DNA from: a virus
Strand: one strand, 5' to 3'
Virus record (IMG/VR): IMGVR_UViG_3300046388_000122
Coordinates: 1-20,424 of that record
DNA length: 20,424 bases
Program-made: the position numbers and the translations under genes
Shown here: piece by piece, positions 4,289-18,607 of the stretch
How the letters are laid out: the number at the start of each line of letters is the position of its first letter
How positions within the stretch are numbered: position 1 is the stretch's first letter
The notes under the pieces: generated by a model
Databases searched by the model: none
What the model was told of the DNA's origin: nothing
What the model saw: only the letters and a program-made list of their open reading frames with translations

Positions 4289-4333
<45 letters not shown>

Positions 4334-6989: not shown

Positions 6990-7169
6990 CTATTTATATA
7001 CGGTGAGATATTCTGACAATTTCCTCCATGTGTTCAGACTGATTCGTTCGTTGCCCTGCTGCACGGCCTTTACGGTGGGGTGCGACAGCCCAGATTTCTC
7101 TGCCACAACCGTCAAACGTCGATCTTGCAGGGCGTCTCTTATTGTATCAAGGGGTATCATATCGTCCAT
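6990..7169 (-). CDS. Cro/XRE-like HTH regulator (59 aa)
   Basis: The start at 7169 is chosen for the GGAGA seven bases upstream. The 59-residue product is almost entirely one helix-turn-helix: 'LDTIRDALQDRRLTVVAEKSGLSHPTVKAVQQGNERISLNTWRKL', with the two DNA-contact helices around 'VAEKSGLSHPTVKAVQQG'. Its size and position, transcribed leftward from a short divergent promoter region in front of the replication/recombination operon, fit a Cro-like repressor or autoregulator. The most likely operator is the symmetric dyad at 7204-7232. No CI-like partner or integrase is visible, so lysogeny cannot be inferred. Confidence 0.8.
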   Translation of the reverse strand: MDDMIPLDTIRDALQDRRLTVVAEKSGLSHPTVKAVQQGNERISLNTWRKLSEYLTVYK

Positions 7170-7202
7170 TGTAGTCTCCAATTTACATATTTTCAAAAAA
7201 GA

Positions 7203-7880: not shown

Positions 7881-8098
7881 TGTTTAAGATCGAAAAGGGG
7901 GTGCCAATGACGGCACCCTCGCGGGATAGATCGGGCAAGTGGAAAGATTTGCTGGGTCAAATGGAAGTTGGCGACAGCGTTCAGCTTGATAGCCAGACGC
8001 AAGCCACATCCATTCGCAATACAGCCAAGCGCATGGGGCTGTTGGTGCATTGCCAACAGCAGGAAGATAGCAGCTTCAGAGCATGGAGGATTGAGTAA
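7880..8098 (+). CDS. small conserved-looking phage protein (72 aa)
   Basis: The product has a basic N-terminal part ('TAPSRDRSGKWKDLLGQMEVG') and a C-terminal alpha/beta part ('SIRNTAKRMGLLVHCQQQEDSSFRAWRIE'). Similar short proteins with an 'SIRNTAKRMG'-type helix followed by a strand are common in phage replication operons and look like small DNA-binding proteins; their function is not known to me. The ATG at 7880 follows GGGAGGG, but the ATG at 7907, after AAGGGGGTG, is also plausible. It overlaps the ATPase gene as TAATG. Confidence 0.65.
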   Translation: MFKIEKGVPMTAPSRDRSGKWKDLLGQMEVGDSVQLDSQTQATSIRNTAKRMGLLVHCQQQEDSSFRAWRIE

Positions 8099-10564: not shown

Positions 10565-11163
10565 CATTGGAAAACTGGTGGGAAGATTTGGAATTGATGC
10601 GGCGTTTGTTTCGCTATGATGCAAAGACTGGATTGATTTACGCAAAGGATCGATCAGAGGAAGATTTTTACGACACTGGCGAGGGCAGTTCATTTGTTAG
10701 TGCTGCGGGTGCTGCCGCTAAATATAACAAAGAACGCAGTGGCAAGCTGGCTATGAACCGCAGGGTAAAGACTGAGAGATCGACGTGCTATTATTTATGC
10801 GGTGGCATTTCTTATCGCGGCCATGACAAAAAAATGCAGGCGCATCGCGTGGCTTTCTTTTTGCATCACGGTCATTATCCCCAATGGCCTAACTCTGTGG
10901 ATCATATCAACAGAGATGGCTGCGATAACAGGATCGTAAATTTGCGTGAGGTCACGGCGAGAGAGCAGTCAGCTAATACTGGATTGAGTAAGTCCAACAC
11001 ATCAGGCGTCAAAGGCGTTAGCTTTTTAAAAGACAAGGGCAAGTGGAGGGCATCGATGAATATTGATGGAAAGAAAACCAATCTTGGTACGTTTTTAACA
11101 ATGAACGAGGCAGTGGCTGCAAGGCTACAAGCGGAAAAAAGAATTCTGTCCCATGACCTTTGA
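10561..11163 (+). CDS. HNH homing-type endonuclease with AP2 DNA-binding domain
   Basis: Residues about 80-135 form an HNH nuclease: H95 in 'AHRVAFF', the catalytic D114-H115 in 'SVDHINRDG', and N123/N127 in 'DNRIVNLREVT'. Residues about 148-192 form an AP2-type DNA-binding domain ('SGVKGVSFLKDKGKWRASM', 'LGTFLTMNEAVAARLQAE'). This architecture is that of free-standing phage HNH endonucleases, which are mobile genes that spread by cutting related genomes. It is wedged between two genes with four- and eleven-base overlaps and looks AT-richer than the helicase that follows. A role in phage replication or packaging is possible but less likely. Confidence 0.88.
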   Translation: MTLENWWEDLELMRRLFRYDAKTGLIYAKDRSEEDFYDTGEGSSFVSAAGAAAKYNKERSGKLAMNRRVKTERSTCYYLCGGISYRGHDKKMQAHRVAFFLHHGHYPQWPNSVDHINRDGCDNRIVNLREVTAREQSANTGLSKSNTSGVKGVSFLKDKGKWRASMNIDGKKTNLGTFLTMNEAVAARLQAEKRILSHDL

Positions 11164-12808
11164 ATTACGCGATTATCAAAGAGAAGCCGTCGATGGCTTG
11201 TACAATTATTGGGCAAGCAAGGCTGGCGATAATCCATTGATCGTGGCACCCACTGGATCGGGCAAGACGGCTATCATAGCCCAGATCGTAAAGGACGCTA
11301 TGTCATTTGCTGGCACACGGGTAATGATTGTGACGCATGTAAAAGAGTTGCTGGAGCAGGGGGCCAATGGCCTGCTGAAAATGTACCCAGAGGCTGATTA
11401 CGGGGTTTACAGTGCGGGGCTGAAACAGAAGGTCTTAGACCGCCCCATTACCTTCGCAGGCATCCAGTCGGTCTGGGAACGCGCCTATGACATCGTTCCT
11501 GCGCCAGACCTGATCTTGATCGATGAGGCGCATATGTTGCCCAAGAATACTGAGACCAGATACAATCGCTTTATTGCCGATCTGAAAGTTTGCAACCCCG
11601 CGATAAAAGTGGTGGGCCTGACAGCGACACCCTATCGATTGGACAGTGGCTATCTCCACAAAGGCGAGGGCGCTATCTTTGACGGCATTGCCCATGACAT
11701 TCCAATAGATATGTTGATGGAGCAGGGCTACCTGTCGCCTGTCATATCGAAGGGCGGTCTGAACCAGATTGATCTGACCAACGTAAAAAAACGGGGCGGT
11801 GAGTTTATTGAAAGCGACCTTGCCACTGCTGCGTCCGATCCCGAATTGGTGAGAAAAACTGTCGAAGAAATTGTAGAACTGAGCGAAGATCGCAAAAGTT
11901 GGTTGGTGTTTAGCAGCGGCGTCGATCACGCGCATATGTTGGCAAATGAGTTTGATTACCACGACATTGAGGTCGCTGTGATCACTGGCGGCAACAGCAA
12001 CAAAGTACGCCAGAAAACCATTGCCGATTTTAAGAGCGGCAAAATCCGCTGCCTAATTAATGTAAACGTCTTAACGACTGGATTTGATCACCCTGCCGTC
12101 GATGTTGTTGCGTTGGTCAGGGCCACAGCATCTGCTGGTTTGTATGTCCAAATGGTTGGGCGTGGCACTAGGATTGCCGAAGGAAAGACTGATGCCCTCA
12201 TTCTGGACTTCGGCTCAAATGTACAGCGTTTGGGTTTCATAGATAGGGTGAAACCCAAAGATAAATCTGCGGGGGCAGGCGAGGGTACGGCACCCGTGAA
12301 GCAATGTAAGTCTTGCCAGACGATGTGCTTTGCGGCGGCACTGCAATGCCACGTCTGCGGCCATGAGTTTCCACCACCAACGCTAAACCACAACTCCAGC
12401 AGTTATGATGGTGCCATGCTGTCGGGCCAAGCAAAACCCGAATGGGTGGACGTGGACAGCGTTCTTTATCACCGCCACCGCAAGGAGGGCAAACCTGATT
12501 CAATCAAGGTGACGTATTACGCTGGGTTGCGATCTGTAAACGAATGGCTCTGCCCAGATCACGGTGGCTATGCGGCCAGCAGATATCAGGCGCGGCGGTC
12601 ACTGCTGGCCTCTGGCGCTGACACAACCGACGAGGCGATGGACGAGTGCCACTTTTGGAATTGGCCCAGCCGCATCAAGATAAAACCAAGCACATACAAT
12701 CCGAAATATTTTGAAGTTGTGCAGTTCGACTATACAAAAGTGGAGAGAAAATATGAGACGCAAGAAGGCCCAATCGCTGACTGGGGTGTCGAAGACATAC
12801 CGTTTTAA
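11153..12808 (+). CDS. RadD-like superfamily 2 DNA helicase
   Basis: The 551-residue protein is a complete SF2 helicase. It has 'LRDYQREAV' (Q motif region), Walker A A32-P-T-G-S-G-K-T39, DEAH at 124-127, TAT at 157-159, 'LTTGFDHP' at 308-315 and motif VI 'QMVGRGTR' (333-340). A zinc ribbon follows with C385, C388, C399 and C402 ('CKSC', 'CHVC'), as in E. coli RadD. After this comes an unassigned C-terminal domain with 'KVTYYAGLRSVNEW'. RadD-type helicases act in double-strand break repair and recombination, so here it likely remodels recombination intermediates. The ribosome binding site is weak and the start lies inside the HNH gene, suggesting coupling. Confidence 0.88.
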   Translation: MTFELRDYQREAVDGLYNYWASKAGDNPLIVAPTGSGKTAIIAQIVKDAMSFAGTRVMIVTHVKELLEQGANGLLKMYPEADYGVYSAGLKQKVLDRPITFAGIQSVWERAYDIVPAPDLILIDEAHMLPKNTETRYNRFIADLKVCNPAIKVVGLTATPYRLDSGYLHKGEGAIFDGIAHDIPIDMLMEQGYLSPVISKGGLNQIDLTNVKKRGGEFIESDLATAASDPELVRKTVEEIVELSEDRKSWLVFSSGVDHAHMLANEFDYHDIEVAVITGGNSNKVRQKTIADFKSGKIRCLINVNVLTTGFDHPAVDVVALVRATASAGLYVQMVGRGTRIAEGKTDALILDFGSNVQRLGFIDRVKPKDKSAGAGEGTAPVKQCKSCQTMCFAAALQCHVCGHEFPPPTLNHNSSSYDGAMLSGQAKPEWVDVDSVLYHRHRKEGKPDSIKVTYYAGLRSVNEWLCPDHGGYAASRYQARRSLLASGADTTDEAMDECHFWNWPSRIKIKPSTYNPKYFEVVQFDYTKVERKYETQEGPIADWGVEDIPF

Positions 12809-14551: not shown

Positions 14552-14588
14552 ATTCTGCTATTGTATCTCCGATCAGAATGCCTATATG
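14552..14588 (+). promoter_or_regulatory. promoter P1 with dyad over the -35 box
   Basis: TTGTAT (14561-14566) is 16 bases from TATATG (14583-14588), which continues TATTGTGTAAGATC. ATTCTG (14552-14557) and CAGAAT (14574-14579) flank the -35 box as an inverted repeat, extendable by one wobble and one G-C pair. The leader to the next ATG is AT-rich and carries GGAGAG. Confidence 0.7.
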
Positions 14589-14628
14589 TATTGTGTAAGA
14601 TCAAAAACTCAAAAAATGGAGAGACCCA

Positions 14629-15325: not shown

Positions 15326-15365
15326 TATCTGGGGGTATTGTATTCCCAGATATACTTCTTATATG
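15326..15365 (+). promoter_or_regulatory. promoter P2 with perfect dyad over the -35 box
   Basis: TTGTAT (15338-15343) is 16 bases from TATATG (15360-15365), followed by TATTGTGTAAGAGAG. TATCTGGG (15326-15333) and CCCAGATA (15345-15352) form a perfect eight-pair inverted repeat whose 11-base loop contains most of the -35 box. ATTAATTAAAT lies upstream as a possible UP element. Confidence 0.72.
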
Positions 15366-15405
15366 TATTGTGTAAGAGAGAAAATTAAAAATCAGGAGAC
15401 AGACT

Positions 15406-16401: not shown

Positions 16402-16437
16402 GATACCCCTTGATATATCTTGGGGTATCACTATATG
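16402..16437 (+). promoter_or_regulatory. promoter P3 with perfect dyad over the -35 box
   Basis: TTGATA (16410-16415) is 16 bases from TATATG (16432-16437), followed by TATTAGGTAAGATC. GATACCCC (16402-16409) and GGGGTATC (16422-16429) form a perfect eight-pair inverted repeat around the -35 box, with a 12-base loop. An A/T-rich stretch lies upstream. Confidence 0.72.
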
Positions 16438-16479
16438 TATTAGGTAAGATCAAAAATTCAAAAATCAGGAGATCAAAAA

Positions 16480-16884: not shown

Positions 16885-16900
16885 GGGGGCTTTGGCCCCC
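16885..16900 (+). terminator. intergenic GC hairpin
   Basis: GGGGGC (16885-16890) and GCCCCC (16895-16900) pair around a TTTG loop six bases after a stop. The spacer then runs ACCAATCAAGGAGAG into the next ATG, like the other spacers of this row. Confidence 0.55.
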
Positions 16901-17088: not shown

Positions 17089-17094
17089 TCAACA

Positions 17095-17112
17095 GGGGGC
17101 CATCGCGCCCCC
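17095..17112 (+). terminator. intergenic GC hairpin
   Basis: GGGGGC (17095-17100) and GCCCCC (17107-17112) pair around CATCGC, six bases after a stop. The spacer then continues ACCCATCAAGGAGACAG to the next ATG, again the repeated spacer design. Confidence 0.55.
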
Positions 17113-17336: not shown

Positions 17337-17497
17337 TGATCCCCTGCCCAGTGTGCGACCACACTGCCTATCACGGTAAGGTCGAAAAGACTGTCTACCA
17401 ACGTTTCGGTGGCACACTGGAGCCTGTTGGAGAATGGGTCGATTGCAATTACTGTGATGGCAGTGGCGAAGTTAAGGAGGATGAAGATGAGCGATGA
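17333..17497 (+). CDS. small zinc-ribbon protein (54 aa)
   Basis: The 54-residue ORF starts MMIPCPVCDHTAYHGKVEKT, with GGGAGGA upstream. C5-x-x-C8 ('CPVC') and C38-x-x-C41 ('CNYCDGSGEV') form a two-knuckle zinc ribbon resembling the DnaJ cysteine-rich repeats 'CxxCxGxG'. Such small proteins may act as protein or nucleic-acid adaptors. It overlaps both neighbours (ATGA upstream, 11 bases downstream). The role is inferred only from the fold. Confidence 0.7.
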   Translation: MMIPCPVCDHTAYHGKVEKTVYQRFGGTLEPVGEWVDCNYCDGSGEVKEDEDER

Positions 17498-17621
17498 GAA
17501 AGTAGTTAAATTTCCTGAGCCTCTGTCCGATCTGGATCGGCAGTTTGAAGAGCTTGAAAGGCAGCGTGAATTGATCAGGGAGCAGGCGCGACAGCTTGCT
17601 GCTGTTCACAAGCCCAAATAG
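17487..17621 (+). CDS. small coiled-coil protein (44 aa)
   Basis: The start at 17487 (MSDEKVVKFPEPLSD) follows AAGGAGGATG and overlaps the zinc-ribbon gene. The 44-residue product has an extended N-terminus and a long charged helix ('DRQFEELERQRELIREQARQ') with clear heptads, so it probably forms a coiled coil. It is the last gene before the TATAAT promoter of the next block, whose -35 region lies in its final codons. Function unknown. Confidence 0.6.
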   Translation: MSDEKVVKFPEPLSDLDRQFEELERQRELIREQARQLAAVHKPK

Positions 17622-17631
17622 CCGCTATAAT
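17605..17631 (+). promoter_or_regulatory. putative promoter with perfect TATAAT
   Basis: TTCACA (17605-17610) precedes a consensus TATAAT (17626-17631) by 15 bases, shorter than ideal. It differs from the TATnTGTA promoters elsewhere. A transcript from it would begin near 17638, inside the hairpin that follows. Confidence 0.5.
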
Positions 17632-17653
17632 CCCCCTAATTCCATTTAGGGGG
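17632..17653 (+). promoter_or_regulatory. hairpin overlapping the ribosome binding site of the next gene
   Basis: CCCCCTAA (17632-17639) pairs perfectly with TTAGGGGG (17646-17653) around a six-base loop. The right arm contains the ribosome binding site AGGGGGTGA of the gene at 17663. Read-through transcripts would hide that site; transcripts starting at about 17638 would lack most of the left arm and leave it free. Confidence 0.6.
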
Positions 17654-17662
17654 TGATGACCC

Positions 17663-18139
17663 ATGATCGATCCTGTGAGCGCCTACGCTGCCGCCACAAC
17701 CGCCTATAAAGGCGTTAAAATGCTGCTGCAGGCTGGCCGTGAAATCGAAGACGTTTCAAAGCAGCTTGGGTCTTGGTATAGCGCAGTGGCTGATATTACT
17801 CGCGCCGAATCACAGCGCAAGAACACAACGTGGCTGGAAAAGAAACAGCACGGCGAGGCATCAATTGAGCAAGAGGCGATGGACATCACGATCCGCGCCA
17901 AAAAATTAAAAGAATTTGAATATGAAATTCGCGTAATGCTGGACTATCGTTTCGGTTTAGGCACCTATGAAGGTATGCTTGATATGCGCCGAAAAATAAG
18001 AAAAGAACGCGAAGAGACTGTGTATCGGGCAATGGAGGCAAAACGCCAAATGGCAAACAATCTTGCAATCACGGGATTGGCTGTGGGCATTGTGGCCGTT
18101 TTGGGAGGCGGCATTTATTTGCTGACGCTTGTGTTATGA
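17663..18139 (+). CDS. phage protein with coiled coil and C-terminal membrane segment
   Basis: The 158-residue protein begins 'MIDPVSAYAAATTAYKGVKM', followed by a helix with 'GREIEDVSKQLGSWYSAVADI', a long charged helical region (about 45-130) and one membrane segment at about 138-157 ('LAVGIVAVLGGGIYLLTLVL'). I have seen this layout, including the 'MIDPV' start, in marine cyanophage-type genomes as a conserved protein of unknown role. C-terminal anchoring plus coiled coil could fit lysis, a spanin-like function or virion assembly. It leads a three-gene overlapping block with its own promoter and an occludable ribosome binding site, suggesting timed, probably late, expression. Confidence 0.75.
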   Translation: MIDPVSAYAAATTAYKGVKMLLQAGREIEDVSKQLGSWYSAVADITRAESQRKNTTWLEKKQHGEASIEQEAMDITIRAKKLKEFEYEIRVMLDYRFGLGTYEGMLDMRRKIRKEREETVYRAMEAKRQMANNLAITGLAVGIVAVLGGGIYLLTLVL

Positions 18140-18345
18140 CAGGCTCTTGGGTGCTGTACATTATTATATTCTTTGTAAATGGTGAAACGATTGTGTTAGA
18201 AAATGATGAAAAATTTAAAACAGAAGATCAGTGCTGGGCCGCAGGCATGATAAAGGGGCCGTATCTTTTAGAGAAAACTTCACATATTTTTGGCGTACCT
18301 GTGAGGGGCAGTTTTTCATGCCAGAAGGCAGGGCAGAGTGCTTAA
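18136..18345 (+). CDS. small protein with N-terminal hydrophobic segment (69 aa)
   Basis: The ATG overlaps the upstream stop as ATGA. The 69-residue product opens with a hydrophobic stretch 'WVLYIIIFFV' (5-14), then a polar part with two cysteines (C33, and C62 in 'SFSCQKAG'). This suggests a short membrane-anchored or exported protein with a possible disulphide. Position between a membrane-anchored protein and another secreted-looking protein hints at a lysis or envelope role, but no family is recognised. Confidence 0.6.
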   Translation: MTGSWVLYIIIFFVNGETIVLENDEKFKTEDQCWAAGMIKGPYLLEKTSHIFGVPVRGSFSCQKAGQSA

Positions 18346-18607
18346 AGTTTTATTGATGTCCGTAACGCTGGCTGGCGTTGCCAATCCCACGCACGTTCAG
18401 TGCCACCTGTGGAAAAGGCTTACCGACAAAAATACTGGTCAGAAAATTTGCGTTTATCGTTTTACAGCGGGGTATGGGGGTCTGGCCTACCATTACCCAA
18501 CTCGCAGCTTCAAAGAGTGTCCCAAGGTTTTTTCCTGCGTTTATGAAAAGAAAGACAAAAGACCCACGCTAAACGAGATATTGGATGGGTTAAGGGACGG
18601 CTTCTGA
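18338..18607 (+). CDS. secreted-looking cysteine-rich protein (89 aa), GTG start
   Basis: The start is a GTG at 18338 preceded by AGGGCAG and overlapping the previous gene; an ATG at 18356 is the alternative. The first 20 residues ('LKVLLMSVTLAGVANPTHVQ') resemble a signal peptide. The mature part has four cysteines (C22, C38, 'ECPKVFSC'), consistent with two disulphides outside the cytoplasm. No lipobox is clear. It ends one base before the stop of the convergent virion gene. Together with the two preceding genes it may act at the envelope, an inference from topology only. Confidence 0.6.
   Translation: MLKVLLMSVTLAGVANPTHVQCHLWKRLTDKNTGQKICVYRFTAGYGGLAYHYPTRSFKECPKVFSCVYEKKDKRPTLNEILDGLRDGF

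Follow-up and report, generated by a model that had tools for sequence, protein, structure and literature searches.

We propose that the gene at 17663 is under the control of a promoter-dependent translational switch, which we consider the best explanation of its leader sequence and to which we give an even chance of being correct. The DNA analysed, which we will call the window, is the whole IMG/VR virus record IMGVR_UViG_3300046388_000122 (20,424 bases), from a marine bacterial virus, for which near-identical and related records were found, and it is probably a fragment of a genome. According to this proposal, the RNA that reads through in the early direction would hold both arms of a hairpin that covers the strong Shine-Dalgarno sequence of the 17663 gene, and the effect would reach the partner genes through the overlap. 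A promoter with TATAAT at 17626 would give an RNA that begins at about A17638, past most of the left arm, leaving the site usable. The mask would stop early read-through from making a virion-type pair that, in one clade of relatives (type A, defined below), is placed behind the early operon. The features involved are the following:

17490-17621, + strand: upstream early-direction gene, stop codon at 17619-17621, proposed source of the read-through
17602-17610, + strand: CTGTTCACA, candidate -35 or upstream promoter element, marking the left boundary of the unit found inverted in relatives
17626-17631, + strand: TATAAT, candidate -10 box, invariant in all type A relatives
17632-17639, + strand: left arm of the hairpin, CCCCCTAA, anti-Shine-Dalgarno
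17640-17645, + strand: loop of the hairpin, TTCCAT, 6 nt
17646-17653, + strand: right arm of the hairpin, TTAGGGGG, overlapping the Shine-Dalgarno and nearly invariant across relatives
17648-17657, + strand: extended Shine-Dalgarno AGGGGGTGAT, serving the ATG at 17663
17663-18139, + strand: the regulated gene, 158 aa, predicted to be mostly helical with a hydrophobic C-terminus, PHROG 32327
18136-18345, + strand: small gene, a lineage-specific insert present in 7 of 156 homologous loci
18338-18607, + strand: partner gene, 89 aa with a hydrophobic N-terminus, adjacent to the 17663 homologue at 148 of the 156 loci

The two arms form eight Watson-Crick pairs without mismatch, and the AGGGGG at 17648-17653, which is part of the Shine-Dalgarno, falls inside the right arm. 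The first-pass annotation had described an eight-pair hairpin over the ribosome binding site of the 17663 gene, and its geometry is borne out. The isolated hairpin has a predicted stability of -13.3 kcal/mol, the 101-nt fold around it has a z of -2.0, and the duplex of the extended Shine-Dalgarno with the anti-Shine-Dalgarno (-16.7 kcal/mol) is the strongest predicted among the 35 starts examined. The window contains five perfect stems of at least 8 pairs with a loop of 3-10; shuffled sequences give 2.7 +/- 2.0, with about 0.6 expected to be G+C-rich. An eight-pair stem somewhere in the window is thus ordinary, and what is unusual is its exact placement on a Shine-Dalgarno beside a TATAAT. Copies of the hairpin or of the promoter were found neither elsewhere in the record nor in the seven related records, and no Rfam leader family matched at its gathering score anywhere in the window. 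Sites with the same succession of TATAAT, C run and G run were also sought in other viral contigs, and outside the family most of them look like chance matches of the pattern.

The strength of the predicted mask was estimated as the energy needed to open the region from the Shine-Dalgarno to the start codon, in a read-through RNA with 80 upstream bases and in a short leader of 25 bases. For the 17663 gene, the read-through form costs 9.9 kcal/mol more, which ranks first of 37 window genes; the 36 other starts, some of which were set by a rule and could be wrong by one codon or more, have a mean difference of 0.83 (sd 2.06, maximum 6.65 kcal/mol). The opening energy is also the highest among 35 starts examined, and dinucleotide shuffles of the window's own upstream sequence place the observed value at z = 2.3 (p = 0.027, uncorrected). 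By predicted fold and opening energy, the hairpin would hide the Shine-Dalgarno in upstream-initiated RNA, as in a T4 gene e-type arrangement. The short leader is itself partly folded, as its Shine-Dalgarno still pairs with codons 2-5 and takes 7.7 kcal/mol to open. The second most masked start of the window (12.1 kcal/mol to open) is the ATG at 7907, which lies in the loop of a + strand hairpin at 7893-7918 (GGGTGCC-AATGAC-GGCACCC) that has the corresponding Shine-Dalgarno in its stem and that reads as a terminator-like site on the - strand. Two G5/C5 hairpins without T runs (16885-16900 and 17094-17112, + strand) also lie ahead of two genes, directly 5' of their CAAGGAGA ribosome sites.

Homologues of the 17663 protein split three ways by leader sequence. 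Type A, to which 10 of the distinct leaders analysed belong, that of the window among them, carries CTGTTCACA-AGCC-AAATAGCCGC-TATAAT followed by a C-rich arm and by TTTAGGGGG. Types B (L013 and L092) and C (L191, L194, L195 and L201) carry CTGTTCACAGCCCC and, at the aligned -10 place, TACAGT and TATGGT, respectively. The 75 remaining distinct leaders, neither A nor B/C, are termed cassette-free. The masking difference is 3.6-9.9 kcal/mol in all ten type A leaders, -1.4 to 2.7 kcal/mol in the six leaders of types B and C, and at most 3.2 (mean -0.5) kcal/mol in the 75 cassette-free homologues; since the sequences are related, the p values of the rank tests across types should not be read literally. 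When the C-rich upstream sequence of each type A relative is shuffled, the observed masking is not above expectation (z -0.6 to 1.0). The eight-pair stem is limited to the window and its identical copies, the other type A relatives having 5-7 pairs, with left arms of the forms GCCCCTA(A), GCCCCCA and GACCCTA. Few parts of the leader are less conserved than this arm. Compensatory changes in the stem, which had been put forward as a check, were sought in the relatives and none was found, all ten leaders keeping 5-8 pairs; this negative result is a weak one, because the 3' arm is fixed as the Shine-Dalgarno, and the divergence among the relatives is low. The idea that the left arm had moved between the -35 and the -10 in types B and C was dropped, as ensembles computed in a longer context did not support it for L092 and type C. 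In two distant relatives (L261 and L263), a clear intrinsic terminator, with a G+C-rich stem and TTTTTTT, lies shortly 5' of the 17663 homologue.

The TATAAT predicts a +1 at A17638, within the left arm, so that the RNA from this promoter would lack about six of the eight left-arm bases and keep two. That transcription starts there, as the first-pass annotation had it, is favored by the position of the box and by its conservation in 10 of 10 type A leaders, and is weakened by the poor -35 candidates (TTCACA with a 15-nt spacer, TGTTCA with a 17-nt spacer) and by a promoter scan of the window that did not call the site at 17626. Only one of 30 columns varies among type A leaders in the stretch from CTGTTCACA to TATAAT, against 5 of 14 (a hand count) in the left arm and loop (Fisher p 0.009); the comparison with the end of the upstream gene, where 4 of 22 columns vary, is not significant (p 0.15). 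Moreover, CTGTTCACA is invariant across types A, B and C, being coding in A and non-coding in B and C. This low variability and this retention favor a promoter, without proving one. No further copy of CTGTTCACA is followed by TATAAT, and the late operon start regions inspected share no motif with the promoter of the 17663 unit, which leaves the lateness of this promoter unsupported. The same strand carries another promoter-like unit, TATATGTATTRKGTAAGA, in three copies (14582-14615, 15359-15392 and 16431-16464) ahead of small genes, at least two of them directly after a hairpin. An analogous promoter-like series, with the palindrome GTGACAnnTGTCA, is seen in the corresponding genome part of the Roseobacter phages CRP-901 and CRP-902.

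The genomic setting gives the proposed mask its possible role. From about 7.2 kb, the + strand carries genes annotated for replication and recombination (a Sak4-like annealing protein, a Cas4-type exonuclease and a helicase), while from 18609 the - strand carries a gene for a protein of DNA-transfer or virion type, and the two sides, early-direction and virion, converge where the 17663 gene block ends. In type A, the 17663 unit ends the early-direction operon, opposite the last virion gene; in the window, the pair thus closes an operon with the Sak4, exonuclease and helicase genes, and no + strand terminator is predicted between 15354 and the block. Among the cassette-free records that were annotated, the 17663 homologue is found directly 3' of the portal (L028) or amid tail-fibre-type and virion structural genes (L044 and L058), and in phage CRP-345 it comes after the tail genes. 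The pair being in the virion operon in these relatives and behind the early operon in type A, the mask would serve to block its early read-through product. The 17663 gene would then be a late-type gene in an early-transcribed region, with expression times deduced from gene content. Three further observations concern this record and its relatives: the stretch 6990-7196 may encode an HTH protein (the Pfam match being under the curated cut-off), a (TAT)n-type AT-rich microsatellite lies at 4297-4326, flanked by - strand genes, and in a related record (G002:42517-44193, L176) the homologue of the helicase gene 11153-12808 is apparently broken into three open frames.

The block itself had been described as a three-gene envelope block. 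It rather comprises a conserved pair, 17663 and 18338, with a lineage-specific insert at 18136, and the envelope label, which is based on hydrophobic segments only, is still a reasonable guess. A Pfam search returned no match for the proteins of the block, the sole match of the 17663 product is PHROG 32327, a family of unknown function, and its structure is predicted with low confidence (pLDDT 66). Bacterial genomes yielded one homologue, from a Porticoccaceae MAG.

In types B and C, the entire unit is inverted, with its left edge and junction at CTGTTCACA, so that it is co-directional after a virion gene and faces an early gene. In this orientation after late genes, the -10 departs from the consensus and most of the masking is lost. 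Lineages in which the read-through would be early thus have a consensus -10 and a mask, and those in which it would be late have neither in full; this is a single contrast, perhaps from one event. The inversion appears to have taken place in situ between the early and late operons (L013, L092, L191 and L194), and long inverted repeats were not seen at its borders. We tentatively suggest, as a history with rather less than an even chance, that a promoterless virion pair moved behind the early operon, where it carries promoter and mask, and that both decay once the unit is inverted after late genes. If this were so, mask strength would track orientation, showing selection to silence read-through at the wrong time, and these lineages would amount to a natural before-and-after experiment in regulation.

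Among the rival explanations, the one that deserves most attention, although we find it unlikely on balance, is that the promoter is real and the hairpin incidental, a G-rich Shine-Dalgarno lying 3' of a C-rich discriminator and pairing with it without selection. The variation of four of the eight left-arm columns without compensation, the relatives doing no better than shuffles and the private nature of the eight-pair form all speak for it; against it, all ten type A leaders keep at least 5 pairs with a masking above that of each of the 75 cassette-free homologues, and the 17663 gene ranks first among the 37 window genes. It is distinctly less probable that the TATAAT is unused and that all RNAs carry the hairpin, as a standing translational brake or one opened by a protein or by coupling to the upstream gene. 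Such a brake, of which Bacillus subtilis sigG has an example (PMC5942855), would suit the poor -35, and in the inverted type C a long alternative stem TGTTCA/TGAACA is possible, as one of two competing folds. However, the most conserved part of the leader is the TATAAT with its 30-nt stretch and not the stem. As for coupling, a calculation with the usual footprint puts the leading edge of a ribosome terminating at 17619 near 17631, at the base of the stem rather than inside it, which makes simple coupling unlikely.

The inverted repeat could also be read as a DNA operator, bound by a repressor over the transcription start. In the window, it does form a 22-bp dyad, perfect in both arms, over the predicted +1, and the possible HTH gene mentioned above could provide the protein, but the spacing of the C run and the G run shifts by one base among relatives, all of which have a shorter symmetry, and the dyad sequence is single-copy in the window, so we regard this reading as improbable. 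Least probable of all, and already disfavored, is an intrinsic terminator between the upstream operon and the block: the stem has eight pairs and is G+C-rich, but it is followed by no T run on either strand and was not called by terminator prediction.

The promoter-dependent switch remains our preferred reading. The T4 e-type logic proposed in the first-pass annotation is upheld as regards the geometry, the difference in accessibility, the invariant TATAAT, the masking in all type A leaders, the homologues in virion operons and the reduced masking of the inverted units that follow late genes; it is weakened by the stem of eight pairs being private to the window and its identical copies, and by relatives that do not exceed their own shuffles. 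We infer from the sequence the start at 17638, the untranslated read-through RNA and the late promoter, the lateness being the weakest of these elements. The data agree just as well with a constitutive promoter belonging to the pair, and a mask that simply shields the pair from the genes around it.

Among cultured phages, the nearest relatives found are CRP-901 and CRP-902 (OQ401623 and OQ401624), with 84-85% identity in the terminase (the query being that of the related record G002) and 66% in the helicase. They are described as strictly lytic and as encoding no RNA polymerase (PMC10149686). They show the same convergent layout of early and late genes, with promoter-like sequences before the last early-direction genes, but the genes at the corresponding place are unrelated to the 17663 pair, and the promoter-like units are repeated and palindromic, inspection by eye revealing no masking hairpin. 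In B. subtilis sigG, the spoIIG read-through RNA forms a hairpin proposed to block the ribosome site, which the RNA from its own promoter cannot form; sigG differs in being a cellular gene with a stem of more than 20 pairs, and in the additional small brake of the own-promoter RNA (PMC5942855). The nearest parallels are the genes with promoter-dependent unmasking, namely e, soc, 49, I-TevI and segB of T4 and mobE of Aeh1 (reviewed in PMC3014915 and PMC2988022); in T4 e, as reviewed, the structure in the long RNA cuts lysozyme synthesis about 100-fold. Like these, the 17663 unit would have a hairpin hiding the Shine-Dalgarno in a long RNA initiated upstream and a nearby upstream promoter, here a predicted one, yielding RNA without the 5' arm, and it would place a late-type gene within an early-transcribed region, as do T4 e and soc. 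The T4 late promoters (TATAAATA, gp55 sigma) and the inhibition by RNA structure are established, whereas the 17663 unit, with its sigma-70-like -10, comes from an unrelated roseophage-like group and is predicted from sequence, and its stem is shorter in relatives (5-7 pairs) than in the window (8 pairs). The unit is probably a further case of an already known kind of switch, that of T4 e, soc and I-TevI. The 17663 family offers matched sets, masked, inverted and cassette-free, in which orientation can be set against the masking of read-through. If the proposal is right, the T4 e-type switch would not be confined to T4-like phages with special late promoters, and would also arise in unrelated marine phages once a virion gene lands behind early genes.
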